Assembly: GCF_020520425.1 (NCBI RefSeq)
Contig: NC_079491.1
Coordinates: 3,844,001 to 3,908,000 of the forward strand
DNA from: Spinacia oleracea
Lineage: Eukaryota; Streptophyta; Magnoliopsida; Caryophyllales; Amaranthaceae
Direction: 5' to 3'
Length of the DNA: 64,000 bases
This document shows positions 16,394-50,649 of the stretch, one piece after another; the stretch's first letter is position 1; each line of letters begins with the position of its first letter. The notes beneath the pieces are model-generated. The model was not told where the DNA came from and did no database searches. It saw only the letters and a list, made by a program, of their open reading frames with translations. The translations under genes and the position numbers were made by a program.

Positions 16394-16508
16394 TAGAGAT
16401 GGCCAATGGGTCGGGTCTGACCCAGCCCACCCTGAGACATCCTGTAGTGGGTCACGTGGGTCCGACACAACCCACGACCCACCAAACCCGCCACGTTGGC
16501 CATCTCTA
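16394..16508. mobile_element. 115-bp Ac/Ds-type hAT mini-element
   Basis: The ends are TAGAGATGGCCAA and TTGGCCATCTCTA, a perfect inverted repeat. The flanking 8-bp duplication GTTCAAAG is exact (16386-16393, 16509-16516). Between the ends lie repeated GGGTC / GACCC / CCCACGACCC words. TAGAG-type ends with an 8-bp duplication identify the hAT superfamily. Confidence 0.9.
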
Positions 16509-16615
16509 GTTCAAAGGAAGGCAAAGTAAATCTCAGTAGCCAGTAGTCCACTTTCTAAACATGAATATGCCTGAATTTTTACTTTAAAATGTCAATGACA
16601 GTGGTACAAAATTAC

Positions 16616-16797
16616 TGTTACTCAGACTCTTCATTTTACCTCAACTACCTGTGTCAGATCCTCGACACTCTGACATGGGTGTGGACACTTGAACACTTCA
16701 TTTTGGATCAAAATCATACAATTTTTTCACAAAATAGCCGTGTTAGACACTTGGACACGTATCCGTGTCGGATATGGATATCAGAGTACGCGTAACA
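16616..16797 (-). mobile_element. TGTTACCCGGACTCT-ended MITE, copy 2
   Basis: This is the reverse complement of the 14621-14801 element with scattered substitutions. It starts TGTTACTCAGACTCTTCATT, shares TGGACACTTGAACACTTCAT and CAAAATAGCCGTGT, and ends GTAACA. Length is 182 bp. Confidence 0.75.
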
Positions 16798-17528
16798 TAG
16801 TCCAATATCGACTCTTAGAGATTTGTATTAATGTATATCATCCGTCGAAAACATAAATAATGTTATAGTTTCCACAGCTTAGCTATATGAATTATTGGGA
16901 TGAATTGAGGACCTACGTTTTTGGCTCATGGATTTTCTGATTAGAACCCCACAGGGCTCAGGGAGTACTACGTACCAATGTAAAAATATGATGGTTCCTT
17001 ACATTAGATCCGGTTACTGTTTTGAACTTAGGACCCTCTTTTTTTTCCATGAAAGATGTCTCCTTGAGTTTAATTACTTTCTTTTTCTAATTTTTAGGAG
17101 AAATTGATAGTTTTATGGGGACAAATATAAAGAGTTTGTCTTTATTTTGGAACCAGAACTGTTTTTACGACTAATTTAGGGTATTATGCTTTACTCTTGT
17201 ATAGCATAAAGTTGTCTAAGGGGCATTCTGGCTAGATAAAGCATGGGTTTGTTTCCCCCCACATGTTTGAGTCTTGTTTGGAAGGGATGATTTTCGTCAT
17301 GGGCCTGGCCCGTGCACAAAACCACTTGGCGGTGGCAGGAGTAGCTCCCCAAACTTATAAGTTGGTTATTATCGGGATTTCCCCTTACCTTTCCCCTTCC
17401 CCTCGTCACACACTTTTAGGCTGCTATCAATCTGGGTTTGTGGCTTAAAAGGGGCAGCCACATTGGTCCCATGTGTATCCATAACAAAGTAAGGCAAAGA
17501 AACTTGATCAAATGATTTTGATTTGTAG
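16798..17528. other. No gene recognised
   Basis: No supportable gene. The open frames at 17191-17448 on the two strands overlap each other and have no recognisable domain. Confidence 0.35.
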
Positions 17529-17790
17529 TAGACCCGATCAAAATGCGGGTTGGATCACATGTTGAAAATTCGGCCCATTGGGTCGGGCTGGGCCAAATCT
17601 TTTGCCGGAATTTTCTACACAAAACCCGTTATTTCGGGCCATGCAAATTTATAACTAAAATATCAACTTTGAGTTGTCCAAAACCCAGCAAAAAATTTAA
17701 AAATTGGGCTAGAACGGGCCTGAAATGGGCCCAAGAATTCTGCCCCAATACCCGCTATTTTTCGGGTCGGGCTCATGATGGTCAGGCCTA
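17529..17790. mobile_element. hAT-type non-autonomous element with GGGTC/GGGCC words
   Basis: It begins TAGACCCGATCA and ends with the complement of TAGGCCTGACCATCATGAG. The flanks ATTTGTAG (17521-17528) and CTTTGTAG (17791-17798) match 7 of 8, a worn 8-bp duplication. The interior repeats GGGTCGGGCTGGGCC-like and CGGGCC words. Length is 262 bp. Confidence 0.7.
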
Positions 17791-18036
17791 CTTTGTAGAT
17801 TTACACAAATCAAAGATGACAATGTTCTTTTAGGACTTTGACTTACATGATTTAATGAGAGCAACAAGAATATAGGAAGTATATCAAATTATCAAGCCAT
17901 CAAGGTGGTCTCCCAACTCAAGGTACATGTCCAAAGCTAGACTTTAGTCCAATAATTAGGATTCAAAGTGATTTAGTGTTGGTTAAACATTCGGGTTAAT
18001 CAGTAACATTGTTAAACTCGTTACTAAATCTTCTAT

Positions 18037-18362
18037 CACATATTCTTATTTACAATGGGTGTACAATAAATATTGTACACCTGAGTAAAAGTTAACCCAA
18101 AATGCTTAAAAGTTAAGCATATATATGTAAAAGTTATCTATTTTTAAGTGATAAATTTTTTCATTTTAGTAAAACTTATTTCTTCAAAATCACTAATAAT
18201 GTATAAAATTAATAATTTAACCCTTAAAAATATTTATCTATCAATTTTTTTTTACTAATATAAAAGTTAATCAAAACTAAGTTAAAGTTAAAAAAAAAAT
18301 GATTAATGTTATCTTGGTTTTCAATAAATTTATTGTACACCTTGTGCGCGTAAGACCTTTTG
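18037..18362 (-). mobile_element. Palindrome-ended MITE family, copy 2
   Basis: This is the inverted counterpart of 9967-10291, 326 bp long. It begins CACATATTCTTATTTACAAT with GGTGTACAATAAATATTG next to it, and ends GCGCGTAAGACCTTTTG. The flanks ATCTTCTAT (18028-18036) and ATATTCTAT (18363-18371) match 8 of 9. Confidence 0.8.
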
Positions 18363-19108
18363 ATATTCTATAGCTTGTTTGGTCTGAAAATGATGTCATG
18401 AGATCTAAGGACTTTTGTTTGGTAATGGAATATCCTAGGATGAATTAATTAAGGGAATTATGATGCAATGATATTGGAAAAAAAGATTGTGACATTTCAT
18501 ACGTTAAGGATTTTAAAGTTTAGTACATTTTGCAATATTGACAATTTGGTTGATGACAAATAAATTCTGGGTTCTGCTAAATTAGTACAATCCGACTGTT
18601 ATATGGTTTTAAACAAATATTGGGGTACTTTAATCAGGGGTTCTTATTATTTTACCTCTTCCCAGTACCTGCATTTTTTGCAGGTGTCATTTGCGTAGCT
18701 TTGGCAAATTGGCAGACCACATTTTGTTTACTTCCTCTTGTTTTTTGGTTAGGTTATGGTTATGGTTATGGGTGTGGGTCATCCCTTTTTATTTACATGG
18801 AACCGAGGAGTGGTACGTGTCATGCATGGTGCACGGATTTTTGAATCCTTGGACTCAATGTTCTATAATGGTTACTCAAACTCGGTTAGGAGTGTCGGGT
18901 ATGGGCACATATTCCACGCGTTGGGGGTATTTTTATGAATTATACGAAGTATTTTCGTATTTTTTCACGTTTTAAACATTTAAATAAACTTGTTTGCTAG
19001 TTTTAATTAAGATTAACTTTTTTAAAGTGTATTGCGTGAATTTACTCTGTGTGATTGAGGTTTTGAAGTGAAAATCTGAGTGTTGGGTTCAGACTCCGTA
19101 CTCTTCTA
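18363..19108. other. No gene; partial GTTACTCAAACTCGG relic
   Basis: No supportable gene. At about 18870-18915 a sequence GTTACTCAAACTCGGTTAGG followed by GTGTCGGGTATGGGCACA resembles one end of the TGTTACC-ended family. It may be a fragment of an older copy next to the one at 19109. Confidence 0.4.
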
Positions 19109-19366
19109 CGTTATCCGGACACGCATAGCAATGTCAGACACGGGTATATGTCCAAATGTCAGACAACTATTTTGTGAGAAATTTTGCATGATTTTGGTCC
19201 AAATTTATTTGTACAATGAGAAAATTGCATAATTTTGGTTTAAATTGATGTGTCCAATGAGACAATTGCATGATTTTGGTCCTAATTGATGTGTCCAAGT
19301 GTCCATACGTTTGAATGTCGAGAATTCGACACAGGTATTTGAGGTAAAATGAAGATTCCAGTAACA
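19109..19366 (+). mobile_element. TGTTACCCGGACTCT-ended MITE, copy 3, internally expanded
   Basis: It shares the ends (TTATCCGGACAC; GAAGATTCCAGTAACA) and the GACACGGGTAT and GTCCAAGTGTCC words with the copies at 14621 and 16616. The segment ATTGCATGATTTTGGTCC plus its following ATTGATGTGTCCAA is present about three times in tandem (about 19182-19300). That explains why this copy is some 75 bp longer. Confidence 0.7.
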
Positions 19367-19905
19367 AAAGTCTCTTGTTTAGAGTGTAAACCGCCCTACA
19401 TCCCTTCCAATTTTTTGATAAAAAAAAAAGAAAAAAAAAGGTAGTAAAATAGCTCAACATTTATTTTCTAAACAACGATTGCCCCTAATGAAAGCTATGC
19501 ATCATGTGCAATAGATCCTTTAGAGATGTTTTGGAAGATCCTGTTAATATTTAGTGAAAAATACCCTTAAAGTTCTAAGATGTCTATATCTATATTTGAA
19601 GAAAAGTGCCCTTAAATCTTAATGTTCTAAGATGCCAATATTTGGAGAAAAGTACCCTTAATATTCTAGGACCATATATGAGATCACAATAAAGACTAAA
19701 GTGTACCTTTCATTGGATGTAAATGTTTATGTAACTCATGCCCTTGAAATCGTTTTAGGGGGGGGGGGGGACTATTTTAATCGGGGTTTTCATGAATTTT
19801 CCCTAGTTTTTCCAGAAATTCATTAAATACGTTCATTTATAAACTTTATGCACAAAATAACAAATTTCTTTAAAACTCGGGGCATCTCATTAAAATCGCC
19901 ATTAA
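19367..19905. other. No gene recognised
   Basis: AT-rich spacer with a run of 12-13 G near 19757-19769 and a repeated ATGTTCTAAGATG / AGTACCCTTAA phrase near 19555-19665. No coding signal. Confidence 0.4.
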
Positions 19906-20134
19906 CACTGTGTTTGGAAACCAAGTTAACTTGAAAATGTGAGGAAAAGTAAAATATAGAAATATGTAGAAATGTAAATCTGAAGAAATATGTAGAAACC
20001 TCAAAATTTTAATTTGTTTGGCTAATTATTACAGAAAACTGAGAAAATTGGAATATCACATAATTTCACCTCTTTAATTTTTTTCCCCCCACAGATTTCC
20101 ACATGTTTTTCCATCACTTTTGAGGGGGGGGGGG

Positions 20135-20387
20135 TGACAAAATGTGATCAAAAGAGAGAGAGTTTGTATTGATGATCAAAAACTAATAAATAATTATTAC
20201 AGTAATGAAGGCCTTTTATAGCTTAATACATTCTAGAAGCTACTGAAATCTGTTACAACTAACTCCTAGAAATAAGGAAGCTATACTAACTGAAAGTGCC
20301 AGCGTGGCAACTCTCATGCACTACAATGTAGTACGTACTGAACCAATGCTGAAGCTGATCAATTGTGCAACATGTATAAGCTTAACA
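20135..20387 (-). repeat. 3' LTR of the Copia element
   Basis: 253 bp, beginning TGACAAAATGTGATC and ending GCTTAACA on the plus strand. In element orientation that is TGTTAAGC..TTTTGTCA, so the TG..CA ends are present. It appears identical to 25059-25311. Confidence 0.95.
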
Positions 20388-20398
20388 GTCCCCCTCAA
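20388..20398 (-). promoter_or_regulatory. Polypurine tract
   Basis: On the minus strand the sequence TTGAGGGGGAC directly precedes the 3' LTR. It is the expected primer for plus-strand synthesis. Confidence 0.85.
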
Positions 20399-21918
20399 GA
20401 TGGAACATCACAAGTTCCAATCTTGGACAATAATAGTTGAAACTGTGCAGATGAAAGAGGCTTGGTAAAAACATCTGCTAGTTGATGTTCAGTGGGTAAG
20501 TAAGCAAGATGTAGAAGGCCTTCTAACACTTTGTCACGTGTAAAATGACAGTCAATCTCAATGTGTTTCGTTCTTTCATGAAACACTGGATTCCTAGCAA
20601 TGTGTAATGCTGATTGATTATCACAGTGAAGGCTGATAGGTTTAAGATTAGAAACTCCCATGTCTTCCAATAAGTTAACCAACCAAGTTACCTCAGATGA
20701 TGCTGCAGCCATTGCCCTATATTCTGCTTCTGCAGATGACTTAGAAACTGTGTTTTGCTTTTTGGATTTCCATGAAACTGGTGACCCCCCTAATAGCAAT
20801 ACATAACCAGTGATGGACCTTCTAGAATCTGGACAAGATGCCCAATCTGAGTCTGAGAAAGCTTGCAACCTGATACACTCTGAAGCTTTTAGAAGTATAC
20901 CTTGTCCTGCTGTGTGTGCCAAGTATCTCAAGGTGTGTTGTAGAGCTGTAATGTGAGGAAGTCTAGGATTTTGCAAGTACTGGCTTAACAACTGAACTGC
21001 ATAGGACAAGTCTGGTCTGGTATGAGTTAGAAAGTTAAGTTTCCCAACCAGTGATCTATACTTCTCTGTGTCAGTGTACAATTCTCCATCTGATAGAGTT
21101 AGCTTTACATTAGCTGGTAAAGGGGTGATTGCTTTCTTTGTGATATCAAAGCCACAGTCACTGAGCAATTCTTTGGTGAATTTCTTTTGGCTAAGAATGA
21201 TACCTTCAGAAGAATAGCCAACTTCAATACCTAGGAAATAGTTCAGCTTCCCCAAATCTTTGATACTGAACTCTTGGTGCAAGTATGCTTTCAAAGCAGT
21301 GAGTTTGTTGTGATCTGTACCAGTAAGGATGATATCATCAACATAAACTGCTGCTATATTAATATGACCTTGTTGTTTGTGAATGAACAAATTGTAGTCA
21401 TGCTTGGATTGAATGAACCCCTGTGTTTCAAGAGCAGTCATAAGCTTTTCATGCCATTGCCTTGAAGCTTGTTTTAAACCATATATGGACTTGAGCAGCT
21501 TGCATACTTTGTTATCAGGATTATCAATGCCTTCTGGTACTTGCATATACACCTCCTCTTTTAAATCTCCATGGAGAAATGCATTGTTAACATCCAACTG
21601 GAAAAGAGGCCAGTTTCTGCTAGCTGCAACAGCAATCAAACACCTGACAGTTGTCATCTTTACTACTGGACTGAAGGTCTCTTCATAGTCAATCCCATAC
21701 TTCTGGTTGAACCCTTTTGCAACTAATCTGGCTTTACACCTTTCCAGAGCACCAGTTGACTTTAACTTGACTTTGAACACCCACTTGCAGCCTATAGCCT
21801 TTTTTCCTTTAGGTAGTTTTACCAATTCCCAAGTAAAATTCTGATCAAGTGCATCGAGCTCTTTCTGCATAGCTTCCACCCATAGTGGTTGTTTAGCTGC
21901 TTCATCATAAGTGAGGGG
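20395..21918 (-). pseudogene. Copia reverse transcriptase and RNase H
   Basis: The reverse transcriptase of a Copia polyprotein occupies about the first 250 residues: WVFKVKLKSTGALERCKARL, then FQLDVNNAFLHGDL, YGLKQASRQW and the catalytic AVYVDDIILTG. RNase H follows, with AFSDSDWASCPDSRRSITGY, SSAEAEYRAM and the final LHCDNQSALHIARNP and TKHIEIDCHF blocks. It ends with a stop shortly before the polypurine tract. It is separated from the upstream integrase frame only by a single in-frame stop (21919-21921), so it is normally part of the same polyprotein. The first ATG is at 21879, but that start is arbitrary; RT-like residues begin upstream of it. Confidence 0.93.
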
Positions 21919-23556
21919 TTATGTGATGTCACAAAGATGTGATAGGAGAGCTTGGAACTCTTCAGGATAAGTGTCATAAGACACTAAATTGCACCAATGC
22001 TGAGTGAACTGAGCTGGAGAGATTGGTTTTGAATTTAGGATAGATTGAGATGAGTAACATTGATAAGAATCTAGATAAGCTGGTTTTCTGTGTGTTCTAG
22101 TGGATTGTCTAGGTGGAAAGTTTGTAGGGGTATTCTCAGATGTAACATGTTCATGAGGAGTAGGTGGAGTGGAATCAACATCTCCAGAAATAGGTGAAGA
22201 AATGGATTGAGTGTGAGTGGAGGGTGAGTTTGGAGATGAATTTGGGAAAGGAAATATAGTGTCTTGTGAGGGAGATTCTTCCTGAGGAGTGGAGAGTGAG
22301 TTTGTTGATGGGAATATTGTGTCTGGGGAAGAGAAATCAGGTGTATCAAAGATTACAGGAGAGGAAATAGCAGGTAAGTAGATGGCATGTGTATAAGAAT
22401 TGTTTGGAGAATTGTGTTTGTGATAGAGATGAAAGGGAAAATGTTTTTCATGGAAATGAACATCCCTTGATACAAAGAATCTATTTGTATCAAGTTCTAA
22501 AACCTTGTACCCCTTCTGAGAAGTAGAGTATCCCATAAAAACACATGGTGTTGCTCTATGGTTCAGTTTGGTTCTTCCTACTCTAGATGTGGACACATAA
22601 CAAAGACAGCCAAATGTTCTCAGATGAGATAAGTCAGTAGTCTTTTTGTGCAGTCTAAAATATGGAGAATCAAGATTGATTGATTGCAATGGCATCCTGT
22701 TGATCAAATATGCAGCACATAACACACACTCACCCCAAAATCTGGCTGGTACCTTAGATTGAATATACAAAGCCCTTGCTGTTTCTAAAAGATGTTTGTG
22801 TTTTCTTTCTACCACCCCATTCTGTTGTGGTGTATCACTACAGCTGGTTTGATTTAGGATTCCAAATTTCAGAAACAGCTTTTTCATATCTCCTTCACAC
22901 AACTCTTTAGCATTATCAGATCTAATGCATTTAACCATAACACCAAATTGTGTCTGAACCATATTGAAGAAATTAGTCATAACAGCAACAGAATCATTCT
23001 TATTTCTTAACAAGTGTATCCAAGTGAACCTGCTGTAATCATCTACAATTGTCAAGAACTGATTACATCCAGAAGGTGTTTTTACAGAATGAGGACCCCA
23101 TACATCAAGGTGAATCAACTCAAAAGGAGCAGTGGTTTTGATGCTACTATGAGGAAAGCTAACTCTAGTTTGCTTAGCTGCAGGACACACTTGACATATT
23201 GTATCCTGTATACAAGTAGTCACCTCACACTTAGGGTTTATTAATCTCAACTGACTAAAGGGAAGATGTCCTAGTCTTAAATGCCAAAGTTTAGCATTGT
23301 CTACAGAGCTAGAACAGACTGTATTACAAACATGTTCCTGTTTCTTCTTCTGCAATTCTGCCACATTGTAAAGACCTGACCTCACATCACCAAGAGGAAT
23401 CAAATTCCCTTTCTGACAATAAACAAAGCACTTATCATGAGTAAATCGAATTTCACACTTCAAATCTTGACACAGCTTGTGAACAGATATGAGATTATAT
23501 TTGAAATTTGGCACATATAGGACATTCTGTAGAGTAATGTCAGCATTCAAATCCAC
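21919..23556 (-). pseudogene. Copia integrase region (GAG-pre-integrase, integrase core)
   Basis: The order is a GAG-pre-integrase segment with the integrase zinc-binding residues (LWHLRLGHLPFSQL .. CQVC), the core domain beginning FELIHLDVWGP, and catalytic acidic positions in LDVWGP, RSDNAKE and QQNGVVERKH (D, D, E). The C-terminal part is Ser/Thr/Pro-rich and ends at TAA 21919-21921, which interrupts what should continue into RT. Its upstream boundary lies one base out of frame with the gag-protease frame, at about 23575. Both breaks look like ordinary damage. Confidence 0.92.
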
Positions 23557-23570
23557 AGTGCCAACATGTG

Positions 23571-24881
23571 TTACAGGAATTTGCTGCCATCTGGTATGGT
23601 TATGTATGTGTTGGGTATGTCAACTGGTTTGCAAGTAGAGAATTGGGACAAATCATGACAGAAATGGTCTGATGCACCACTATCTAACAACCATTTAGAA
23701 TTAGATTGTGAGAGTAAGCATATACCTGCCATCATAACAAGGCTAGGCTGATTTCCAGAAGCTGGTTGTTGTTGCTTAGCCATCATATCCAAGAGCTGCT
23801 GATATTGTTCTGTTGTTATAGTGGGAGCAGTAACAGTTTGTTGCATACCAGATGTTTCAATATCAGATTTGGTGCCAGAAGAGAATGCAGCTACTTTGGA
23901 ATCTCTGGAACCTTTGAAACCTGGTGGATAGCCATGAATCTTGAAACACCTATCCACACTGTGCCCTTGCACTTGACAATGTGTACAAAAATAACTGGAA
24001 CCTGTTCTTCCATATTTGTTGGTGTTGCCAGATTGAAAACCACCATTCTGCTGTGTTCTGAAAGTTTTGTTGTTGTTGTTGTTATTCCAATGATCTCCTC
24101 CAAAACGCCTCTTTTCAGCTGCAAAAGCTAATGTTTCCAGTTGTTTGTTAGACTGAGAAACTTCTCTGTGTCTCTCTTCTTGAGCAAACAATCTGTATGT
24201 CTCAGATACTTTGGGCAAAGCAGGCACCATCAATATATTTCCTCTAATGGTAGCAAACTGATCAGAAAGTTTCATCATAAATTGCATCACCATCTTCTCT
24301 TGTTGTCTGTCAAAGAACTTTTTAGTAACATTACAAGTACAATTGTTACAAGTGCAATATGGAAGTGAATGAGCTTCCTCAATTGCATCCCAAACTGACT
24401 TGATCTCAGTGAAAAATTCTGAAATACTCTTATCTCCTTGAACAATTTCAGCTAGCTTTTGTTCAAGAGAATAGATCTGAGCCAAAGATGCAAAGCCAAA
24501 CCTCTCCTCTAAATCAGTCCAGACATCTCTAGCTGACTTCAAAAACATCACACTCTTAGCAATTTTATCATCCAGATTGCCTAAAATCAAAGAACATACC
24601 AAGTCATTGCACCTTTCCCAAGCCTTACTCTCCACTGAACCAGGATCAGGTTTAGTATAGCTTCCATCAATGAAGCCAATTTTATTCTTAGCTGAGAAAG
24701 CAAGCAGCATTGATCTCTTCCAACTGGTGAATCCTTCACCATTGAACTTGAACGTGACCAGTTGAGTGGAATTCGCATCCGAAGGATGAATATAATAGAT
24801 GCTTGCAGGATCTTGATTAGGAGGAAGTGTGGAATTGCGCCTCGAAGTCTCTTCATTGGAATCGAAATCTTCAGCAGCCAT
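23571..24881 (-). CDS. Copia gag and protease
   Basis: A 436-aa frame starting at ATG 24879-24881. The gag part (FNGEGFTSWKRSMLLAFSAK) is of the RE1-like UBN2 type. A CCHC knuckle reads CTHCQVQGHSVDRC, followed by FKIHGYPPGF. The aspartic protease active site is LLDSGASDHF near the C-terminus. The frame closes at IPDGSKFL a few residues into the protease region, because the downstream reading continues one base out of register. The gag portion itself is intact and could in principle be translated. Confidence 0.93.
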   Translation of the reverse strand: MAAEDFDSNEETSRRNSTLPPNQDPASIYYIHPSDANSTQLVTFKFNGEGFTSWKRSMLLAFSAKNKIGFIDGSYTKPDPGSVESKAWERCNDLVCSLILGNLDDKIAKSVMFLKSARDVWTDLEERFGFASLAQIYSLEQKLAEIVQGDKSISEFFTEIKSVWDAIEEAHSLPYCTCNNCTCNVTKKFFDRQQEKMVMQFMMKLSDQFATIRGNILMVPALPKVSETYRLFAQEERHREVSQSNKQLETLAFAAEKRRFGGDHWNNNNNNKTFRTQQNGGFQSGNTNKYGRTGSSYFCTHCQVQGHSVDRCFKIHGYPPGFKGSRDSKVAAFSSGTKSDIETSGMQQTVTAPTITTEQYQQLLDMMAKQQQPASGNQPSLVMMAGICLLSQSNSKWLLDSGASDHFCHDLSQFSTCKPVDIPNTYITIPDGSKFL

Positions 24882-25046
24882 TTTTTCAGAAATAGTTTTG
24901 GATCAAAAACAGTAGAAGAAAAACAGAGAAATTGAGAAAATCAACACAATCTGTGAATCAGAAAGAGTTTGTGGCAAAAAAATTCGAAGAAAAACAGGGA
25001 AATCTTGCGGAATTTCAGAAAAATTGAGCCAAGAATCTTTGATTCT

Positions 25047-25058
25047 GCTCTGATACCA
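25047..25058 (-). promoter_or_regulatory. Primer binding site (tRNA-iMet)
   Basis: On the minus strand TGGTATCAGAGC lies directly next to the 5' LTR. This is the standard primer binding site complementary to the 3' end of initiator methionine tRNA in plant Copia elements. Confidence 0.95.
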
Positions 25059-25311
25059 TGACAAAATGTGATCAAAAGAGAGAGAGTTTGTATTGATGAT
25101 CAAAAACTAATAAATAATTATTACAGTAATGAAGGCCTTTTATAGCTTAATACATTCTAGAAGCTACTGAAATCTGTTACAACTAACTCCTAGAAATAAG
25201 GAAGCTATACTAACTGAAAGTGCCAGCGTGGCAACTCTCATGCACTACAATGTAGTACGTACTGAACCAATGCTGAAGCTGATCAATTGTGCAACATGTA
25301 TAAGCTTAACA
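25059..25311 (-). repeat. 5' LTR of the Copia element
   Basis: 253 bp, identical as read to 20135-20387. The element's promoter and polyadenylation signals should lie within it. Confidence 0.95.
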
Positions 25312-25492
25312 GGGGAATGTGGAAAATAAAACATGTAAAATATAACTAGTTGATTTCCATAGATTTCCACACATTTCAATTTCCTCAATTTTCCATTTTA
25401 ATTATCTAACAAGCTAAAATTAAGAAATTCTCCTATTTCTATAATTTTATCAACTTTTCCTCATTAAACTAGAGTTCTCAAACACACTGTAA

Positions 25493-27287: not shown

Positions 27288-27678
27288 TAGACCTGGTTAT
27301 TGGACAGGGTAGTCCAATGGATATAGGGTTAGGGTCAAGTTAATAGGGCTTTTATTGGGCAGGGCTCTTATTGGACAGGGCCTTTATTGGACAGGGTAAT
27401 TATAGGGTCAAACTTATACTACAATATTTTGAAAATTAAAATAGTAATGATACAAAAAATTACGTGTATAGCTTCGTATTTACTTGTACTTGCACATGGC
27501 TCTTTTGTTTTTCATTTTTCATTGCTCGTTTATTGACCCGCTCAATAATGACCCCCTATTGACCCGCGACCCGCTTTTGACCTGCCCATTATCGACCCGC
27601 TAAAAATGACCCTTTCAATACCCGACCCTCTTTTGACCCGCACCGACCCTGATCCGCCCCGCCCGATAACCAGGTCTA
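27288..27678. mobile_element. hAT element with GGACAGGG and GACCCGC arrays
   Basis: The ends are TAGACCTGGTTATTGG and the complement of TAGACCTGGTTATCGGG. The 8-bp flank CTTAGCAC is exact on both sides (27280-27287, 27679-27686). The left arm repeats TTATTGGACAGGG four times, the right arm repeats TTGACCCGC / CGACCC about eight times, and the middle is AT-rich. Length is 391 bp. A broken relative lies at 5114-5607. Confidence 0.92.
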
Positions 27679-28306
27679 CTTAGCACCTTTTATAACACAA
27701 TTAATTATTAGACTTTTTTATGGTTCTAGTTATAGCTCAAAGAATCGGAATAGAGTTCGAAAGAAAGCTATGATACCCCCTCAATTATTCTTCTAAGTCT
27801 AGTCACGTTTGAAACTCTAGTATACTACTACTTCCAACTCATTTTTATAGGGAAAATTTGGCTTTACATTTTAGGTACAAAGCTTGTGGTTGAAGAGATG
27901 AGTTGCCAAAAGAATACGGAGTACTTGACATCATTTTGGTGGTTTGCATGTCAATCAATAACACGTTGAGGATGACCTACAAATCATGCAACAATGAATT
28001 TTGGATTGCAAATTCATAAATCGTAAATTCCATCATGTCTTTATTAAGTACTACAATACAATGTGTATATATGACGAAAATTAATGCTAGCTAGGGTTCA
28101 TATTGATTACAAAAAAATTCGTCCAATTCCCCTGAAATGACTTGTCATCAAAAGGGTTTCGGTTACGTGTGGTTTGAAGAAAAAAGAGTTTTTTCAGTGG
28201 AATTATAAGCTTCACCTTTTCAAAAAAAAACTAATAGGAGCGTTCTGTAAAGAGAGGTTTGAAAATGAGTTTTGGGATGAAAAAACTTAATACAAGAACT
28301 TTTTGC

Positions 28307-29655
28307 TAGGGATACCAACGAGCTGAGTCGAGCTGAGTATTTGGTTGTTCGAGTTAGGCTTGATAAGAAATTTCCGAGCTCGAGCTCGAGCCAAGCTTAA
28401 CCGAGCTTTCATTTCCCATGTTCGAGCTTGGCTCGTTTAAGTTTTTCATTGTTTGAGCTTAGCTCACGAGTAGCTCGTTTAAATTCAAACTTGAGACGAG
28501 CCGAGCTATATCAATAAAAAAGAGTTTTTCACAAACTAGCCTTGATAAACAAGTAAGATCGAATTTAAACGAACCTATTAATAAACGTAACATTATTTTA
28601 AAAGTTTAAAAAAGAACCAATTCTAATATATTTTTTGCATACTATACTAACTAATACTATTTTATAATCTCGTAAAATAAAAATATTCTAAAAATCAAAG
28701 TCTAACAAAATAATTCCAACTTAGTTCTAACTTAAAATTCAAGCTTCAACGAGCTTTAAACGAGCTTATAAACAAACATGAACGAGCTGTTCGCGAGCCT
28801 AAACAAGCCGAACACCAAGTTGTTCGAGCTAGGGGTGTTCATAAAAAACCGTAACCGCGTACCGTACCGAAAACCGAAAAACCGACCTAAATGGGCGGTA
28901 AACCGAACCGAAAAAATAATATAAACGGTTACGGTAACCGAAACGGCAAAATTAACGGTTAAACGGGTCGGTTACGGTTACAATTTTTGACAAAACGGTT
29001 AACCGAATAAACCGATTTATTTTTTCAAAAAAATAATTCAATTTAATTTAGTTGGAGGTGACAAAATCACAAAATTATAGGTAAAGTATTTAAGTAAAAA
29101 AATGTTTGTTTGTGCACAACTAGCCCTATTAGTGTACTTACTTCTTAGGCTCTTAGCCCATTAGTCCTTTCTTGAAACAATAAGTACGTTACTTCGTAAT
29201 TTTGTTTGAAGTTGATGAACTTGTGTAATTTTAGACATTGTTTACACTTATTTTTGTTTGACTTGATCTTCTATTTCAGATTGTTATTTTTTGTAAAAAA
29301 ATAATACGATAAATGTGATCCAAAATAAAAATAAATAATTTAATAGCGGTTTATGGTTAACCGGGTAACCGTACCGAAACCGCGGTTAACCGTTTAAACG
29401 GTAACCGATTTAAACGGTACGGTTACGGTTCATGAAAATGCCTAACCAAAATTTTCGGTTACCGAACCGAATCAAGTTTCGGGACGGTTAACCACCCATG
29501 AACACCCCTAGTTCGAGCTAGTATCATTTATTGAACGAGCTTCAACATTTTGTTCAAACTCATTTATTTAATAATGATCGAACGAGATTTGATCGAGCTT
29601 TGACCGAGCTTGTTCACGAGTTGTTCACGGAGAAATCAGCTGGTTGACATCCCTA
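28307..29655. mobile_element. hAT element with CGAGCT arrays, host of a nested hAT
   Basis: It begins TAGGGATACCAACGAGCTG and ends CAGCTGGTTGACATCCCTA. The 8-bp flank CTTTTTGC is exact (28299-28306, 29656-29663). Both arms are packed with CGAGCT, GAGCTCG and TTCGAGC words. Another hAT element (28830-29510) interrupts it. Without the insert it is about 660 bp. There is no transposase. Confidence 0.92.
28830..29510. mobile_element. Nested hAT element with AACCG/CGGTTA arrays
   Basis: It begins TAGGGGTGTTCATAAAAAACC and ends ATGAACACCCCTA. The exact 8-bp flank GTTCGAGC (28822-28829, 29511-29518) is itself one of the repeated words of the host element. The arms carry more than twenty ACCGAAC / CGGTTA / GGTAACCG words around an AT-rich core. 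Length is 681 bp. No coding sequence. Confidence 0.93.
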
Positions 29656-29663
29656 CTTTTTGC

Positions 29664-31556: not shown

Positions 31557-32055
31557 TATTTTGGAATTTTTGAGTACCATATTTGAGGAATAAATATAAT
31601 TTTTGAACTTCTGAGTACCATTTTTTATTTCTAAGTACCATTTTTGAAATTCTGGGTACCATTTTTGAACGTATGAGTACCACTTTTAATCTTATAGGTA
31701 CCATTTTTGAAATTCTTAGTAACCACTACAAGAATTTGTATCTTTAAACGACAACCTAATTACGACGGGTCAAAAATCCCGTCGCAAAAGCCTTTTGTGA
31801 CGGGGCTAACAACCAAACAACGATGGGAATAACCGTCGCAAATGTCCTTTACGACGGGTTTACGACGGAATTTCTATTAACGACGGCCCCCTTTTATGAC
31901 GGGTTCGCGACAGGAAATCCCGTCGTTAATCAACGATTATTGGCCTTTCGCGACGGGATTTCCCGTCGTTAATAGTACAATTTCTTGTAGTGAACATATT
32001 TGAACTTATGAATACCATTTTAAAACTTATGAATATCATATTCGAACTTCTTTTG
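31557..32055. repeat. Minisatellite of about 20-bp units (GAGTACCATTTTTGAACTT)
   Basis: About nine degenerate units with the consensus GAGTACCATTTTTGAACTT run from 31557 to 31733 and resume at 31993-32055. A CACTA transposon interrupts the array. Units differ by substitutions and small length changes, so the array is old. Confidence 0.75.
31734..31992. mobile_element. CACTA (En/Spm) non-autonomous element
   Basis: It begins CACTACAAGAATTTGTA and ends TACAATTTCTTGTAGTG. The 3-bp flank AAC is exact (31731-31733, 31993-31995), as expected for the CACTA superfamily. The arms carry about ten CGACGGG / CCCGTCG subterminal words, the likely transposase binding sites. Length is 259 bp and there is no coding frame. 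Confidence 0.95.
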
Positions 32056-35631: not shown

Positions 35632-35897
35632 GGCCCTGTTCTGTTCACCTTATTTCCACTTATTTCAGGAAAAATAAGTTCAGATAAGTTCAGTTAAGTT
35701 CAGATAAGTTCAGATAAGTTCAGATAAGATAAGTTCAGATAAAATAAAGTTGGCCAAGTACAATTTATAACTAAAATAAGTTTTGATAAGTTCTAATAAG
35801 TTCAGATAAGTTCAGATAAGTTCAGTTAAGTTCAGATAAGTTCAGATAAGTTCAGTTAAGGAAAAATAAGTGGAAATCAGGTGAATAGAACGCAGCC
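35632..35897. mobile_element. Tourist-like MITE with TTCAGATAAG arrays
   Basis: The ends are GGCCCTGTTCTGTTCACC and the complement of GGCTGCGTTCTATTCACC. The exact flank is TTA (35629-35631, 35898-35900), a PIF/Harbinger-type target. The interior carries about fifteen tandem ten-base units TTCAGATAAG / TTCAGTTAAG in two blocks. Length is 266 bp. A smaller relative is at 44297-44473. Confidence 0.85.
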
Positions 35898-35953: not shown

Positions 35954-36450
35954 ATATAAAATATTAGAGGTCAATAACATGACGATTTAGGCTATGTTCT
36001 CTTCATCTGATATGGCCTGCTTTTTTTAATTTTTGGTCTTATCTGGTATGATCTAATCTGAATGTTTTCTATAAGTATTTTATTATTTTTACCAGGCGAA
36101 ATTTTTTCTAGTATGATCTGATTTTTCTAGTCTGATCTACTCCGTAATAAACACTAAACATAAGATAAATAGAACAGAGTCTTAGTTTCGGACGTAGGAA
36201 TCCTTAGTACTAAATCTATTTTAATTGTTCATCTCACTCATGATTAGGAAAACCAAGATGAGAAAAAGACAATGCCAGGGTGTTTGATCAAACTAGCTTA
36301 GAGTACTAATCCGTATTATGGTATGTGCCTTTGTGGAATAGGTTGAGTAGGTCAAGATTTGGTGATTAGATTACCAGTACACTTAATTTATCATTAAACC
36401 AATTGTTAGCAGTTGATTACTCAAATAGATTTGATTAATTTTATTGGTAA

Positions 36451-37860: not shown

Positions 37861-37899
37861 TCTAATAAAACTAAAAAACAGTAGTTCTACTACTCCCCC

Positions 37900-43600: not shown

Positions 43601-43795
43601 ACATAAATTTGGTATTTTTTGTTTTTATTCCAATTTGTAAGTGTTCCCTTTTTTTAGGATTAAGACAAACAGAAAATATATGATGCATTTTTATAAATAT
43701 AGTCATCAAATGATGAGTACTTAAAACATAACAAAGGGGTGGGTCACCTCATCTGAACTTGATCCAATCCCCACTTGATCACTACCTAGCAATAT

Positions 43796-43985
43796 GGGGC
43801 GGATTTTGAGCAATTTATACAGGGAGTTAGTAAAAATACTCTGTATTAAGCAATATAGTATGAGTATACATACAAATATACAATTATACTCCAAATTTAG
43901 GGAGGTCGAACTAAAATTATACTATAAATTTTTTCACTCAGAATGCTAAGCCCACTCATGCCGCAGTGAACGCCACTGCCAAACA
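43796..43985. repeat. GGGGCGGAT-ended dispersed repeat, copy 2
   Basis: It starts GGGGCGGATTTTGAGC and shares TATACAATTATAC, a GGGAGGTCG-like phrase and ACTATAAATTTTT with the repeat at 30355-30531. The right end is decayed and the boundary is uncertain. Confidence 0.45.
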
Positions 43986-44296
43986 TGGAGATAAATACTA
44001 ACTCCGTCTCAAAATAGATGTTCTTTTTATTGCTTCTTATGACTCAAATTACTTGGTCATTCCCCTAAAAAATTACTTCGTCATTCCGTTTACGGCAAGC
44101 TTTTGTCTTACTTTTTTGGTTCCGTACCCTGGTGTTTTATCAACATTATTTTCCTTAACCATGCTTGTATTCTCTATTAATGTAAGAGCAAGTTTAACAA
44201 CACCATGTACTAAGTCCTAAGATGAAATTTCCCTTTTCTAAGCATTAAACCATGCAAATCTTAAATCAAGTTTTGATTTTCAAGACCCTCGTCTAA

Positions 44297-44473
44297 GGAT
44301 GTGTTTTATTTACCTGATTTTCACTTATTTTATTTAAACTTATCTGAACTTATTAGAACTTATCAAAGCCTATTTTAGTTATATACTTGATTAACCCTTA
44401 TTTTTCTTGAACTTATCTTATCTGAACTTATTTTACTTAAAATAAGTGGAAATAAGGTGAACAAAACTGAGCC
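44297..44473. mobile_element. Tourist-like MITE, relative of 35632-35897
   Basis: The ends are GGATGTGTTTTATTTACC and the complement of GGCTCAGTTTTGTTCACC. TAA flanks both sides (44294-44296, 44474-44476). ACTTATCTGAACTTATT words fill the interior, the complement of those in the larger copy. Length is 177 bp. Confidence 0.8.
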
Positions 44474-44604
44474 TAAAATGCAAATAAAAGTACTTGAAGT
44501 CTTTCTTTTTCACCACAATTCAAATGTCAAAACCTTTTTACATTTCCCCTTGTACATAGTATATGAAGAAAATATGTAAAAGAGGTCATCAATATACATA
44601 AAAA

Positions 44605-44958
44605 CAAAAGGTTTTGCTTGCACAAGTTGTACAATAAATTTATTGTGCACCAACATAACTTTAATCCAGTTTTCTCTAACTTTTACCCAGTTTTCTCTAA
44701 CTTTTACTCAGTTTTCTCTAACTTTTATATTATTAAAAAAAAAGTTATTAGACAAACATTTTAAAGTGTTAAATGATTAATTTTATATATAATTAGTGAT
44801 TTTGAATAAATATTTTTTATTAAAATGAAATTTTTTATTACTAAAAGGTAGATAACTTTTACATATACAAGGGTGACTTTTAAGCATTTTACGTCAACTT
44901 TAATTTCGGTGTACAATATTTATCGTACACCCCATGTAAATAAGAATCTGTGACATTG
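44605..44958 (+). mobile_element. Palindrome-ended MITE family, copy 3
   Basis: It begins CAAAAGGTTTTGCTTGCAC, followed by TTGTACAATAAATTTATTG, and ends near AAGAATCTGTG. The 9-bp ACATAAAAA lies directly before the start (44596-44604) and again at 44959-44967, six bases after the usual family end. The phrase AACTTTTACCCAGTTTTCTCT is repeated about three times inside this copy, making it longer than the other two. Confidence 0.75.
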
Positions 44959-44967
44959 ACATAAAAA

Positions 44968-46074
44968 TACCTTCGATACACGGCGCACCGCGATGTACCT
45001 AATTTTTTTTTAATAAACATTTGAGAGGAAAAAAAAAGTAAAAAAAAGTATAAAAAAAAAAAAAAAAAACCGCCATAAAGAAAGGGGGTTTGTTGGCACT
45101 AAGGACATGTCACCGTCTCACTGGTTGATAGAATTCTGTGCACAATTTATCATTGTTGAATTTATACACGTGGCAAAGAGACAGGTATTTACGTTGGTCC
45201 TAAGATTCTTATTGGTCACTAGTTTAACCTATTTTTACAGCTGGCACCTGAGCCCCACTCAGAGATTGTCTACTGGTTCTTGCGGGAAAATAGTAAATTT
45301 ATACAGTATTTTTTATTTGCTACTGTTCTCTATTTTCCAAGATTTTTATTGAGCTTGTATCTCTTTTGTATTCCACTTGGATCAAATTTAAATAAGGAGT
45401 ATGACTAATAACAAACTTTCTATGATCATAATCATATCATTACATTCAAAAAAAAAAAAATATTCATATCATTATATCCAAGAATATTTAGGTTTTTTTT
45501 TCTATTCCTCATTTGTTTAGTTTTTGTTCATTTAGAGCTTTTTAAATTAAATGAAAAAACGTATTTCGTAAATGATTAAAAAATTACTACGAAATACAAA
45601 TACGTTTAATTTTATTACATAAAACTCGTAATATGGAGTAAATTTTGATTTGGATATTTTTTTTTCCCATTTCTGAAGTCGAAAGCTAATGCTCGATTCA
45701 TTTATTAGTCATTATGTCGTTGGTGTTTTAGCTAATACAAACATCCATTTCTATCGATGGATTGAAATAATAGGTTTGTATTAGAAAATTTTAGCATAAA
45801 AACTCAATAAAGTCGTAGAGGTTGTTTCAACAAATAAACTAGTATGATTCAATCTCTAATTATGGTTTTCACCCCACAAATATAGTTTTGTTTTTAGCAT
45901 CGATTTTTTTGTTTGGTGTACTAAAAACCGTGTTTATTGCACATGACAAGCTCAATTAACAGTGTGACACTCTACAACATAAGAATTTACGTTATGAAAA
46001 ACCAGCAATAATAGTTCAACTTATATGGTGTTAAGAAAGGATGCACGTTCTCGAGCCAACATATATAGACGGGG
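44968..46074. other. No gene recognised
   Basis: A-rich tracts lie at about 45027-45070. The open frame at 45107-45352 has no recognisable domain. No repeats worth naming beyond simple ones. Confidence 0.4.
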
Positions 46075-46222
46075 TAAAGATGGTTGTGGGCCGGGTAAAA
46101 TTAGCCTTAGGCACGACGACCCGGCCCAGCCCAAAATAAAGTTCGCGTATATGACCCGGCCCGACACGATGCAACATGGGCTCGGCCCGAAACCCGACCC
46201 GTCCTGACCCCGGCCATATTTA
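46075..46222. mobile_element. 148-bp hAT-type mini-element
   Basis: The ends are TAAAGATGGTTGTGGGCCGGG and the complement of TAAATATGGCCGGGGTC. The flank GACGGGG occurs on both sides, apart from one extra G. The interior is filled with GGCCCG / CGACCCGGCCC words and accounts for the overlapping open frames here on both strands. Confidence 0.7.
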
Positions 46223-46733
46223 GACGGGGGTAGAGACAATAGAGTGGATAAGTGCAAATTCCAAAGATAAAGAAATGGTGGTAATAAGGCAAACATGAAT
46301 TTCCGGTAAGCCGACATAATTAGACGTTTTCATGTTAAAAGGAGAATCTAACAAAGCCTACTCCGTACGTACTTACTCGACCGGATGTGACTTTGACTCA
46401 TACATGTCTTCTTCTTTTTGTTATCAATCCGATTTTATCTGTTTTTAGTTTTATTTCTATTTCTTTATAATCTAATTGGCGGCCTTGATTTTGTTTTAGT
46501 CACTTGATTATCTTTTTGCTTTCCACTAATCATTGATTATGGGTCAAATATCAGCCCGTTAAAAAGTCGGAGTTTACTCATTCAACGTACAAGTTCGTAC
46601 TCCGTATATGTACGTAGTTACCTTCCTTTTTTTTTAAGTAGAAGACCGTTTTTCTTTATACATGCATGGAAAATTCTCTTTTGTTTTTTGGGTTGAGATC
46701 AGTGGGGAAACCAATGGATACCAAGTGGAGGCC

Positions 46734-47465
46734 TAGAGATGGCTAACGTGGTGGGTTGGGCGGGTCATGGGTGGGTTTGGTGGGTCGTGGGTCGGGGATA
46801 ATTGACGCACGGCCCACCTCAGTTAAACTAGGGTGGGTCGAGTCGTGGGCTGTGTCGGGAAAAATGGACACAGTACATGATGGGTCGTGGGTTACGTGGG
46901 TCGTGGGTTGTGGGTCGATGTGAGTTGTGCGGGTCGGGTGGGTCTGATGGGTTTGGTGGGTAAACGCCAGATGTGGTTCCGGTGGGTCAGGTTGGTTTGG
47001 TGGGTTTACATGAGTTTCAGGAACTGATTTGGATCAGGTGGGTTTGGACGATTAATCAAGCGATAAAACGTTAAAAGGTTTGTATGAACTTAAATTAATT
47101 AGTTTGTATGTTATTCACTTACTCACATAAATGTGGTTAATGTATATTTACACAATAAAATTAGAATTTGTTAACATTTTAAACATACAAAATTGTTTAA
47201 ATTAGGATGAGTTTCGCGAGTTGGGTTCGTGTGTTGGGTTGGGTGGGTCGGGTGTGTCGTGGCGGGTTGTGTCGGGTCGGATGGGGTGGGTCGAAATGGG
47301 TTGTGTTGAAAAAATCCAACACACAACACATCTAAAAAATATCCGGGTTGGGTTGGGTTGGGTTGTGTCATGACCTCATGGGTCATAAGTGTGTTTGACC
47401 CATATAACCCACTATAAGCTGTGTCTGGATGGGTTGGGTCAATCCCGATCTACTGGCCATCTCTA
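46734..47465. mobile_element. hAT-type element with GTGGGTC arrays
   Basis: The ends are TAGAGATGGCTAACG and the complement of TAGAGATGGCCAGTAG, nearly the same ends as the 115-bp element at 16394. The flanks AGTGGAGGCC and AGTGGAGCC differ by one base inserted. The left arm and the far right arm carry dozens of GGTGGGT, GGGTCGTGGG and GGGTTGGGT words around an AT-rich middle (47045-47200). Length is 732 bp. No transposase. Confidence 0.8.
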
Positions 47466-47875
47466 AGTGGAGCCATCTAATCCCATTTGGCAAAAAAAAA
47501 AATTGCATAATTTTAATTAATTTATCAATAATTCGTATTAAAATGTACCTAATTATTTAGTTTTTCATTAGTTTTTTTAATATTGGCCCGCCACATGTAG
47601 AAATGAGTCACTTGATATTCCCTTGCATTATTTTGTCTTTACATATACTCGTATGTTACGGAGTATTGATTTATAACTAACTTATATTATGTAACTATCT
47701 TTAACCTATGCTCTAAAAATGTTAATAAAATTTCGAGAAGAACATTCTCAATTCGCCAATACTTACGTACTTAGCTTAATTGGTATGCTCTTTCATTATG
47801 TTCATAATCTTCATACACTTTATGTTATCAGTTTATGACTAACTTCATAGTACCTCTAATTAGGATCTGCATATA

Positions 47876-48427
47876 TAGGGATGTCAGTGGGGCGGGTTTT
47901 GCGGGAGATCCGCCCCGCATTCGCCTCAAGTAGGCGGGGATGGAGGTAGGATTGGTGGGTGGTGGGGCGGGGAAGGTGTGGATTTTGTGTTGAACCCGCC
48001 CCATCCCCACTCGCTCCGCCCCATCCCCATTCGCCCCGCTTCATACCCGCCATGGGTGCATGATAGGGTGAGTTTGAATTTATTTGTATCTTTTGGTGAT
48101 AATATGAATTTTGTTTGGATTTTTTTGTTATGACGAGTATTATTTTCAATTATATATGTTACTTTAATCATAAGATATTTTTTTAATCAATAGTTAACTT
48201 TCATTACTCCGTATATATGGCAAATGTTTGCTAAATAAGAAAAATTAGGCGGGTATGACGTGGGGATAAGATGGGAATGGATACCCAGTTGGGTGGTGGG
48301 GCGGAGATGGATTTTAGCTTACACCCGTTAGGACGGGATGATGATGAATTTTGTACCCGCCATGAGTGATGGGATTGGGAGTGGAGTGACCTATATCCGC
48401 ATCCGCCCCGTCCCATTAACATCCCTC
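47876..48427. mobile_element. hAT-type element with GGGGCGG/CCGCCCC arrays
   Basis: It begins TAGGGATGTCAGTGGGGCGGG and ends CCGCCCCGTCCCATTAACATCCCT, an imperfect inverted repeat of Ac-type TAGGGATG ends. Both arms carry CGCCCCATCCCC and GGGGCGGG words. I cannot find a clean 8-bp duplication, so the right boundary is approximate. The overlapping open frames on the minus strand are by-products of the repeated words. Confidence 0.65.
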
Positions 48428-48845
48428 ATCCGGTCATCCGCATACTAAAATAAATGCTACTCCATAGCCATTTGTTGGGACCATAAATGAAAGAAGACTC
48501 AATATTACTTGCCCTATTATAAAATATGTGATCATATAAAGGTTGAGTAATCGAATAAAATAATTATCGTTAAAGTGTCACAACTAGTATAGTACATTTA
48601 GTACTCTCTAAATAGGGCCATGCATGCCCATGCCACTATATGAACCTATTAATCATTGACTGGTCCCTTCATATTAACTTGAGTTAGTCTAATTACTGTT
48701 GCATACGTCTTCTAGCTAGGGATGTATGTGATTACCAATTTACCATGTCATGGCCTTACTCAACGTACAATCATTTTTGTTTAAGAACAATTATTATTGC
48801 TAGCTTGAGAACTACATGTACTGTATAGTACAAGTATATCAATCC
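48428..48845. other. No gene recognised
   Basis: AT-rich spacer without coding signal or clear repeats. Confidence 0.4.
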
Positions 48846-49108
48846 GTGGACTATGGACCGTGGTGCACATAGAGTATGGTGCATCAAAAAAAAATATGTG
48901 CATAAGCAAAAGAACATGACACTACGGCAAAAGAACATGTGATATAATATTTCACATTTTTTGTTATAAAATAATATATTATTTTACTCTTTATTAAAAA
49001 CCTAAATAAAAAAAATACTCATGTTCTTTTTTCGTAACCAGATGTTCTTTCAATTATATACTAGTGTCCTTAAGGTGCACCATGCTCTATGTGCACCATG
49101 GTCCACCT
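48846..49108. mobile_element. Fold-back element with GTGGTGCACATAGAG arms
   Basis: The left arm contains GTGGTGCACATAGAGTATGG and the right arm the complement of ATGGTGCACATAGAGCATGG. The arms extend outward as GTGGACTATGG against GTGGACCATGG, giving inverted repeats of about 38 bp. The interior is AT-rich with two AAGAACATG words facing each other. No target duplication is visible. Confidence 0.65.
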
Positions 49109-49253
49109 TCTAAATTGCGACAAGCATATAAGTACTTTACTCTCTATTTCGTACTCCGTATTTAGGAAAGATATCCAAAAGAACGAATTGAATGTCTATT
49201 TATTTTCATTCTAATGACAATATTCACATTATAAAAAAAAATATAATTATCGA

Positions 49254-49380
49254 TGAGGTCTTAGCCTAGTGGTTAAGACATAGTGCATGTATACGATATG
49301 TCTTAGTTTCAGATCCTACATCCAATTTGTAATTTGTATAGCCTATTATGGCTCATTTGTAAAAATTAAAAATAAAAAAC
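49254..49380 (+). mobile_element. tRNA-derived SINE (GAGGTCTTAGCCTAGTGG type)
   Basis: It starts GAGGTCTTAGCCTAGTGGTT, whose TAGCCTAGTGG fits the RNA polymerase III A box. The B box is TTTCAGATCC about 50 bases on. The element ends GGCTCATTTGTAAAAATT with an A-rich tail to about 49379. ATCGAT/ATTGAT near the two sides may be a worn target duplication. Confidence 0.6.
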
Positions 49381-49564
49381 ATTGATACTTTAAATTAAAT
49401 GATTGATAATAAACTGATATGAAGCATAAACTACGTACTCGTTTAAAACTTTAAATCTATTGGGTTTTAACAATGGACTGTTCGTTGTTGGACGGTGGTT
49501 GTTTCACCTGAGTTATTTGACCGGCTTTTTATCTTGGTTGTTTGACTGCAAGCTTTCTAGAAAT

Positions 49565-49853
49565 GTGTTTGGTAAAGTTAGTTGTTGGCTACTGATTGTT
49601 TCATACATAATGACCTTTATGGCCATTGGTATATTTTATTTTACTTTTAAAATGGTAGAAATGAGGGATAAAAATGTAATTAGCAAAATGAAAAGCCACA
49701 ACATCAAAAGGTTAGTATTACTAGCTTTTGAATTTTGGTGAAAAGTTGGCTTTTAAGCCAAAAAAAAAAAAGTCATTTGTCAAACACTTATATTGGTTAT
49801 TTGACCAACTGATCGAAAAAGCCAAAAGCTAATAAGCTAGTTACCAAACACTT
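49565..49853. mobile_element. GTGTTTGGTAA-ended MITE
   Basis: The left end GTGTTTGGTAAAGTTAG and the complement of the right end, GTGTTTGGTAACTAGC, are inverted repeats. AAAAGCCA/TTTTGGCT words lie near both. The end sequence resembles PIF/Harbinger or hAT MITEs and I do not see a decisive target duplication. The open frame at 49460-49741 has no known domain and overlaps it. Confidence 0.5.
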
Positions 49854-50120
49854 CCTATATGTGAAATATTGAATTATGGTGTACTTGCTAATGTACGTAT
49901 ATGGTTTCTATACTACTATATACGCAGTATACATAATTCTCCAGCAAAAGATTATTAATTGCGGCTGGCTACTCGTACGTAATTGAGTTAAAATTTGATC
50001 CACTATCACTTTTTTTAATTTTTTGTTGATATTATATTTAATCAATCACTTTTTATTTCCATATCTAAAATTAAATGTACTCGGATTAACTAATTAAAAG
50101 AAGTGACACATAAATACGTG
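49854..50120. other. No gene recognised
   Basis: AT-rich spacer. Confidence 0.4.
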
Positions 50121-50649
50121 TAGGGGTGAGAAAAAGTCAGGATATCCTAAATCGGAACCGGAACCTGTTAGGAACCTGCGGTTCCGGAACCGGAACCTGT
50201 TGTGCAGGTTCCGGTTTCGGGTAACAAATTTGGGAACCTGTTGCAACAGGTTCCGGTTCCGGGTAACAAATTTTTAGAACAGGTACCCAATAGGGTACCC
50301 TATACACACTAATTTTAACGTGGAGTACCCAAAATAAGGAACTGAGTCATATGAAAATGTTTCATATGCCTAAAATATAAAACAATCTAAGTTATTTTTT
50401 GGAAAATATAAATATAGAATTGCAACTTAATCCCAAACTATAAAACAATGAAAGCCCAAACCATAAAGTAGATAGTTTTTCAATAAAATATAAATATTTT
50501 ACTTAAATTTTCAAAATTACAGGGTACCCTGAATCGGAACCTGTTACAACAGGTTCCGGTTCCGGTTCTCATTTTAAGGAATCTGTTGCAACAAGTTCCG
50601 GTTTCGATTCCTGGAATTTCAACAGGGTACCATGTTGTGCTCACCCCTA
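50121..50649. mobile_element. hAT element with GGTTCCGG/GGAACC arrays
   Basis: It begins TAGGGGTGAGAAAAAGTC and ends TTGTGCTCACCCCTA. The exact 8-bp flank AATACGTG lies at 50113-50120 and 50650-50657. The arms repeat GGAACCGGAACCTGTT, GCAACAGGTTCCGG and GGTACCC words; the core (50300-50515) is AT-rich. Length is 529 bp. Confidence 0.93.

Follow-up and report, generated by a model that had tools for sequence, protein, structure and literature searches.

The window analysed here is a 64,000-nucleotide stretch of the spinach (Spinacia oleracea) genome (assembly GCF_020520425.1, contig NC_079491.1, positions 3,844,001 to 3,908,000 of the forward strand). In it, a first-pass annotation had listed nine small non-autonomous elements of the hAT superfamily, each said to be filled, in both arms and around an AT-rich core, with a short repeated word of its own. 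Below, the elements are named by their start positions and given without strand assignment, together with a further 27288-family copy (5114-5607) that was absent from the earlier list.

16394..16508: hAT mini-element of 115 bp; ends TAGAGATGGCCAA; exact target-site duplication (TSD) GTTCAAAG; words GTGGGTC/TGACCC
17529..17790: probable hAT mini-element; ends TAGACCCGATC/TAGGCCTGACC, 8/11 alike; flanks ATTTGTAG/CTTTGTAG, matching at 7/8 TSD positions; weak words GGGCC/CGGGT
27288..27678: hAT mini-element; ends TAGACCTGGTTAT; exact TSD CTTAGCAC; GGACAGGG three times in the left arm; TGACCC seven times in the element, five of them in the right arm
5114..5607: second copy of the 27288 family, degraded; left arm and core only, right arm missing
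28307..29655: hAT element; ends TAGGGATACCA/TAGGGATGTCA; exact TSD CTTTTTGC; 17 copies of CGAGCT, the nested element excluded
28830..29510: hAT element nested in 28307; ends TAGGGGTGTTCAT; exact TSD GTTCGAGC; 26 copies of AACCG and 7 of AAACGG
46075..46222: probable hAT mini-element of 148 bp; ends TAAAGATGGTT/TAAATATGGCC, 8/11 alike; flanked by the 7-bp repeat GACGGGG in shifted register; words GGCCGGG/CGGGT
46734..47465: hAT element; ends TAGAGATGGC, 10/11 alike; flanks AGTGGAGGCC/AGTGGAGCC, a duplication with an indel; words TGGGT/GTGGGTC
47876..48426: probable hAT element; ends TAGGGATGTCA/AGGGATGTTAA, which match once shifted by one base; GGGGCGG words; no target duplication found at its flanks
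50121..50649: hAT element; ends TAGGGGTGAG; exact TSD AATACGTG; 13 copies of GGAACC, partly in palindromic arrangement

Element 28830 was inserted into one of the CGAGC words of 28307 itself. The degraded copy at 5114-5607 is interrupted by a Stowaway-like element at 5265-5515 (CTCCCT...AGGGAG ends, TA at either side), and its right arm is gone, so that its TSD cannot be compared. Element 16394 lies between long inverted arms (14619-14802 and 16615-16799, 90-92 per cent complementary and ~2 kb apart), to which a sequence at 19313-19358 is related.

Terminal Repeats and Target Duplications

As the first-pass annotation had claimed, five of the nine listed elements (16394, 27288, 28307, 28830, and 50121) have exact 8-bp target duplications, together with matching TAG-type ends. 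Short terminal inverted repeats of the TAG/CAG type are present, the exceptions being 46075 (TAA) and 47876, whose right end is without the first T. These ends and the 8-bp duplications place the elements in the hAT superfamily. The list of nine is mostly real, although the duplications of 17529, 46075, and 46734 are imperfect and none was found for 47876.

A blind scan of the 64 kb for any 10-bp inverted ends with at most one mismatch, 80-3000 bp apart and accompanied by an exact 8-bp duplication, gave four places, every one of them on the earlier list; 28307, whose ends have two mismatches, was not among them. On 30 order-2 Markov controls, the same scan gave 0-2 places each (14 in total). 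Relaxed to two mismatches, it gave 19 places versus 2-12 in the controls. The places from the relaxed scan are evidently mostly chance, and the case for 28307 therefore stands on its hAT-type ends. A second scan required hAT-like start letters, in a pattern that leaves out 27288. It gave seven places, four of which have an exact duplication (16394, 28307, 28830, and 50121); in 20 Markov controls, the number of places was 0-3 per control, and exact duplications were absent.

Subterminal Word Arrays

Subterminal repeats are stated to be a defining feature of hAT elements (PMC4890040). Tests of the maximum word with A/T words included proved too blunt, and we instead counted pairs of identical 6-mers with at least three G or C, after removing the outer 12 bases of each element. 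The counts were compared with 1000 dinucleotide shuffles per element and with 400 segments of equal length from the rest of the window. All nine elements have more 6-mer pairs than their own shuffles (0-4 of 1000 reach the value), and eight of the nine also exceed the background segments (0 or 1 of 400), the ninth being 17529. The most frequent single 6-mer tells less than the pair count: its value is reached by no more than 8 of 1000 shuffles in six of the nine elements, as opposed to 98 in 17529, 76 in 46075, and 27 in 47876. Background segments reach it 38 times of 400 for 17529, 20 for 47876, 11 for 27288, 6 for 46075, and 0-1 times for the other five.

The position of the words was tested with one chosen word per element. 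The chosen word lies toward the ends at P < 0.05 in five of the nine elements (28307, 28830, 46734, 47876, and 50121), with no significant end bias in 16394, 17529, 27288, or 46075. The middle third is free of chosen words in 28307, 28830, 47876, and 50121. Repeats in both ends, as expected of hAT elements, are present: they are clear in 28307, 28830, 46734, 47876, and 50121 and weak in 17529 and 46075, while the words of 27288 partly differ between the arms and those of 16394 are not accompanied by a separate core. The description of every element as having dense repeats in both arms agrees with the excess of pairs over shuffles in all nine, but an end-biased word is found in only five, and the AT-rich core said to be in every element is not clear in 16394 (115 bp) or 46075 (148 bp). 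Orientation varies: TGGGT in 46734 is on one strand in 29 of 31 cases, in both arms, GGGTC in 27288 occurs twice forward in the left arm and nine times reversed in the right arm, and the orientation of words is mixed in 28830 and 50121.

It is possible, if doubtful, that some of 17529, 46075, and 47876 are not hAT insertions at all, but are either remnants of other elements or stretches that are GC-rich by chance. All three are without an exact 8-bp duplication, their top words do not stand well clear of the shuffles, as given above, and the pair count of 17529 is not distinct from the background (22/400 segments reach it). Their inverted ends are, however, alike (8/11 in 17529 and 46075, and after a one-base shift in 47876), a 7-base flanking repeat is present in two of the three (17529 and 46075), and 46075 and 47876 stand above the background in pair count (reached by 1 and 0 of 400 segments, respectively). 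For the set as a whole, ends, duplications, and arrays support the assignment to non-autonomous hAT elements with subterminal arrays.

Vocabularies and Ends Compared across Elements

We tabulated the words across ten sequences, namely the nine elements and the left arm of the 5114 copy, and the resulting word-by-element table is nearly diagonal. All 17 copies of CGAGCT are in 28307, the other nine sequences having none; GGACAGGG is confined to 27288 (3) and the 5114 copy (1); GTGGGTC is found in 16394 (3) and 46734 (9), with 0 in the other eight; GGGGCGG is found in 47876 (7) and 27288 (1); and GGAACC has 13 copies in 50121, 1 in 46734, and at most 1 in any other sequence. Other words are more widely distributed, such as TGACCC in 27288 (7), 46734 (5), 16394 (2), and 46075 (2), and GGGCC in 17529 (6), 46075 (4), 27288 (1), and 46734 (1).

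In BLAST comparisons among the elements, 16394 pairs with 46734: after reverse complementation, its first 76 bases correspond to the right end of 46734 (78 per cent) and its last 39 to the left end (87 per cent). Judging by this alignment, 16394 is a member of the 46734 family reduced to 115 bp by deletion. Its correspondence to both ends of 46734 led us to reject the possibility of nine independent words. The copy at 5114-5607 matches 27288 at 73 per cent over 161 bases and at 77 per cent over 93 bases. In all, there are about seven vocabularies, some of them related. The notion of a separate word for each element is accordingly reduced to these seven or so, with 16394 and 46734 forming one family and TGACCC being common to four elements.

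The most useful new result is that ends can agree although the words differ, as observed in two pairs of elements. The left end of 47876 is identical to the right end of 28307 at 11/11 bases (and at 9/11 to the 28307 left end), yet CGAGCT has 0 copies in the former versus 17 in the latter, and GGGGCGG has 7 versus 0. Similarly, the right ends of 28830 and 50121 are equal at 9/11 bases. Since the ends in these pairs are equal or nearly so and the words are different, the ends stay while the words change. Together with the near-diagonal table and the seven or so vocabularies, these pairs support the earlier proposal of parallel families whose words have diverged.

Ends that are alike across families (several pairs agree at 9-11 of 11 bases) could also mean that one or two generalist hAT transposases move all of the elements via the common TAGRG ends, the words having drifted among derivatives. 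We regard this as very improbable. Some maize Ds1 elements without AAACGG do transpose nonetheless (PMC3260210), but seven maize Ds-like elements tested in the same study, with shared ends and AAACGG, did not excise, so ends are not always enough. Moreover, the vocabularies here are dense and internally coherent, which is not what drift alone would be expected to build.

We also searched viral contigs for two of the arrays. The pattern of the 28830 family had 0 matches, and the CGAGCT array had 6, which have a GC content of 0.61-0.72; a scan of the DNA available for these six gave no hAT-like ends with duplications, and we took them to be chance.

Interpretation of the Arrays

We consider it probable that the elements are non-autonomous hAT elements resembling miniature inverted-repeat transposable elements (MITEs), that their words are recognized by transposases, and that each vocabulary corresponds to a different transposase lineage. 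By analogy with hAT biology, transposases encoded elsewhere in the genome would recognize both the short terminal repeat and the words, contacting the words with their N-terminal BED-type zinc finger. A BED finger has been implicated in this way in Tgf2 (PMC4890040). Several transposase subunits may bind an array cooperatively, in which case the multiplicity of the words would be kept, but not their exact spacing or orientation. Near-equal ends with different words suggest that recognition words evolve more quickly than ends, and hence that each vocabulary probably belongs to its own hAT transposase lineage.

More tentatively, and on the basis of the same contrast between ends and words in two pairs, hAT families with near-equal ends may have swapped their whole vocabulary, the array acting as an address code that isolates transposases residing in the same genome. 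On this view, replacement of the word and change of the BED finger would be linked and rapid as hAT lineages split. If each vocabulary does correspond to one transposase, plant hAT elements would offer a naturally occurring collection of proteins and their DNA targets from which BED-finger specificity could be worked out by sequence alone, and it would be clear how numerous hAT families can live side by side without mobilizing one another's elements.

Several observations weigh against the interpretation that opens this section. Four of the nine elements (17529, 46075, 46734, and 47876) are without an exact duplication. Vocabularies overlap, in that AACCG, with 26 copies in 28830, also has 8 in 50121 (and 1 in 28307). 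A limited search of the window revealed no autonomous partner: comparison of two hAT consensus stretches with the whole window gave nothing convincing (best E-value 0.35), and no hAT or BED Pfam family was found in any of the nine open reading frames (ORFs) of at least 150 aa or in the 10 of 49 ORFs of 85-149 aa that were examined, a coverage of 19/58 ORFs of at least 85 aa that a badly broken transposase relic could escape. Because the elements are non-autonomous, the absence of a transposase is expected, and their membership stands on ends and duplications.

Conservation of the arrays between copies, which the first-pass annotation had named beforehand as a test of its proposal, could be followed in the two replicate pairs provided by BLAST (16394/46734 and 27288/5114 copy). 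Copies have words in common, but the words are not significantly better kept than the spacers. When the words of either copy are marked in the 16394/46734 pair, 39/48 word columns are identical versus 30/41 others (P-value = 0.45), and for the 27288 pair, in which the left arm alone could be compared, the values are 27/34 and 95/119 (P-value = 1.0). Of three markings applied to 16394/46734, the one by 46734 words alone is favorable (26/27 versus 43/62; P-value = 0.005), whereas that by 16394 words alone is not (34/42 versus 35/47; P-value = 0.61). Furthermore, the array is in part local tandem duplication in 27288, 28830, 46734, 47876, and 50121, and no selection is needed to account for that part.

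Tandem units in these five elements and the lack of a significant excess of word over spacer conservation would also be expected if the hAT elements are real but slippage and local duplication within the short GC-rich arms generated most of the array, so that a transposase has only ever used the outermost word or two. Similarly word-dense mini-elements of other superfamilies in the window (CACTA-like at 31724-31992 and PIF/Harbinger-like at 35632-35897) point in the same direction. However, the spacing of the words is mostly irregular and both orientations are common, unlike in simple tandem arrays, and the middle third of four elements, as described above, contains no chosen word. We consider this origin of the arrays unlikely, and recognition of the words by different transposase lineages remains our preferred reading.

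Other Mini-Elements and Gene Content of the Window

The CACTA-type mini-element at 31724-31992 has ends CACTACAAGAA, AAC at either side, and CGACGGG words (CCGTCG nine times); it is of the same word-filled design as the hAT elements but belongs to another superfamily. The PIF/Harbinger-like mini-element at 35632-35897 has GGCCCTGTTCTGT ends, TTA at either side, and an array of the 10-bp unit ATAAGTTCAG, and it is adjoined by a second such mini-element at 35990-36181, also with TTA at either side. An element with ends GGCCCTGTT...AACAGGGCC at 52850-52989 has CTGAA words and no clean duplication. Inverted-repeat stretches at 3385-3894 and ~55894-56340 have TTTTTAGGTGGTAAAA words and are perhaps one mini-element family. 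A perfect (AT)49 run is found at 50772-50869.

ORFs and Pfam matches indicate a copia-type retrotransposon at 20395-24902 and reverse-transcriptase remains at 5725-7884, and Pfam assigns IBR and ARIH1-type domains to an ORF at 62521-63525. From these three features, we read the content of the window as plant DNA. An ORF at 2775-3152 has a partial protein-kinase domain.

Comparison with Known hAT Systems

Short repeated words that are bound by the respective transposase have been described for Tag1 (right-end TGACCC and left-end AAACCC) and Herves (CGATTCAT) (PMC3143072), and AAACGG is bound by the Ac transposase (PMC3260210). We tested seven known motifs in the nine elements (63 tests, with 2000 shuffles each). 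Two tests survive correction, both with counts reached by 0/2000 shuffles: TGACCC in 27288, where it is the top 6-mer with seven copies, and GCHCG in 28307, where it occurs as 21 copies of GCTCG. AAACGG in 28830 (14/2000 shuffles reach its seven copies) and TGACCC in 46075 (4/2000) and 46734 (5/2000) are not significant after correction, nor is AAACCC enriched after correction in the nine elements. The Herves motif and the Hermes motifs show no enrichment in the nine elements. By a rough estimate, the chance that the top word of some family would match one of the listed motifs is a few per cent, and such a match is therefore no more than suggestive.

The earlier label of "Ac/Ds-type" holds in a loose sense. 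Like Ac/Ds elements of maize (including the Ds-l4 class), the spinach elements have short ends, 8-bp duplications, subterminal hexamers, and no coding capacity, and 28830 has four of its AAACGG copies in the left arm and three in the right. However, AAACGG is absent from the other eight elements, and the ends diverge past the first bases from the Ac end; that of 28830 differs from it after TAGGG. By the 11-bp Ac end and AAACGG repeats, the elements do not appear to belong to Ac/Ds proper.

In 28307, GCTCG, a top word of that element with 21 copies, fits GCHCG, a putative motif of Tam3 from snapdragon; a literature look-up returned no paper with both terms. The likeness of 27288 to Tag1 of Arabidopsis lies in the right-end motif TGACCC (PMC3143072), which is its top 6-mer and has 5/7 copies in one arm, but the left-end AAACCC has 0 copies, so a two-sided pattern like that of Tag1 is not seen. 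The hATpin MITE-like elements of beet and other plants are likewise small, gene-less hAT derivatives. Eight of the nine spinach elements fold better than their shuffles (z <= -2.3; range of all nine -1.0 to -11.8, with 40 shuffles each). Half-to-half pairing amounts to 67-78 per cent in 16394, 17529, and 27288, to 60 per cent in 47876, to 54 per cent in 50121, and to less than half in the other four, and a single hairpin over the whole element, the very stable fold expected of hATpin, therefore does not appear to be general here.

In the mostly open-access literature, we found no report of plant hAT mini-elements compared by vocabulary; the nearest appears to be a survey of beet hAT elements. 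That transposase-bound short words differ among hAT elements is already established (PMC3143072, PMC4890040). The elements described here are further examples of this known hAT kind, and their occurrence side by side in one window makes the set a handy illustration of it.

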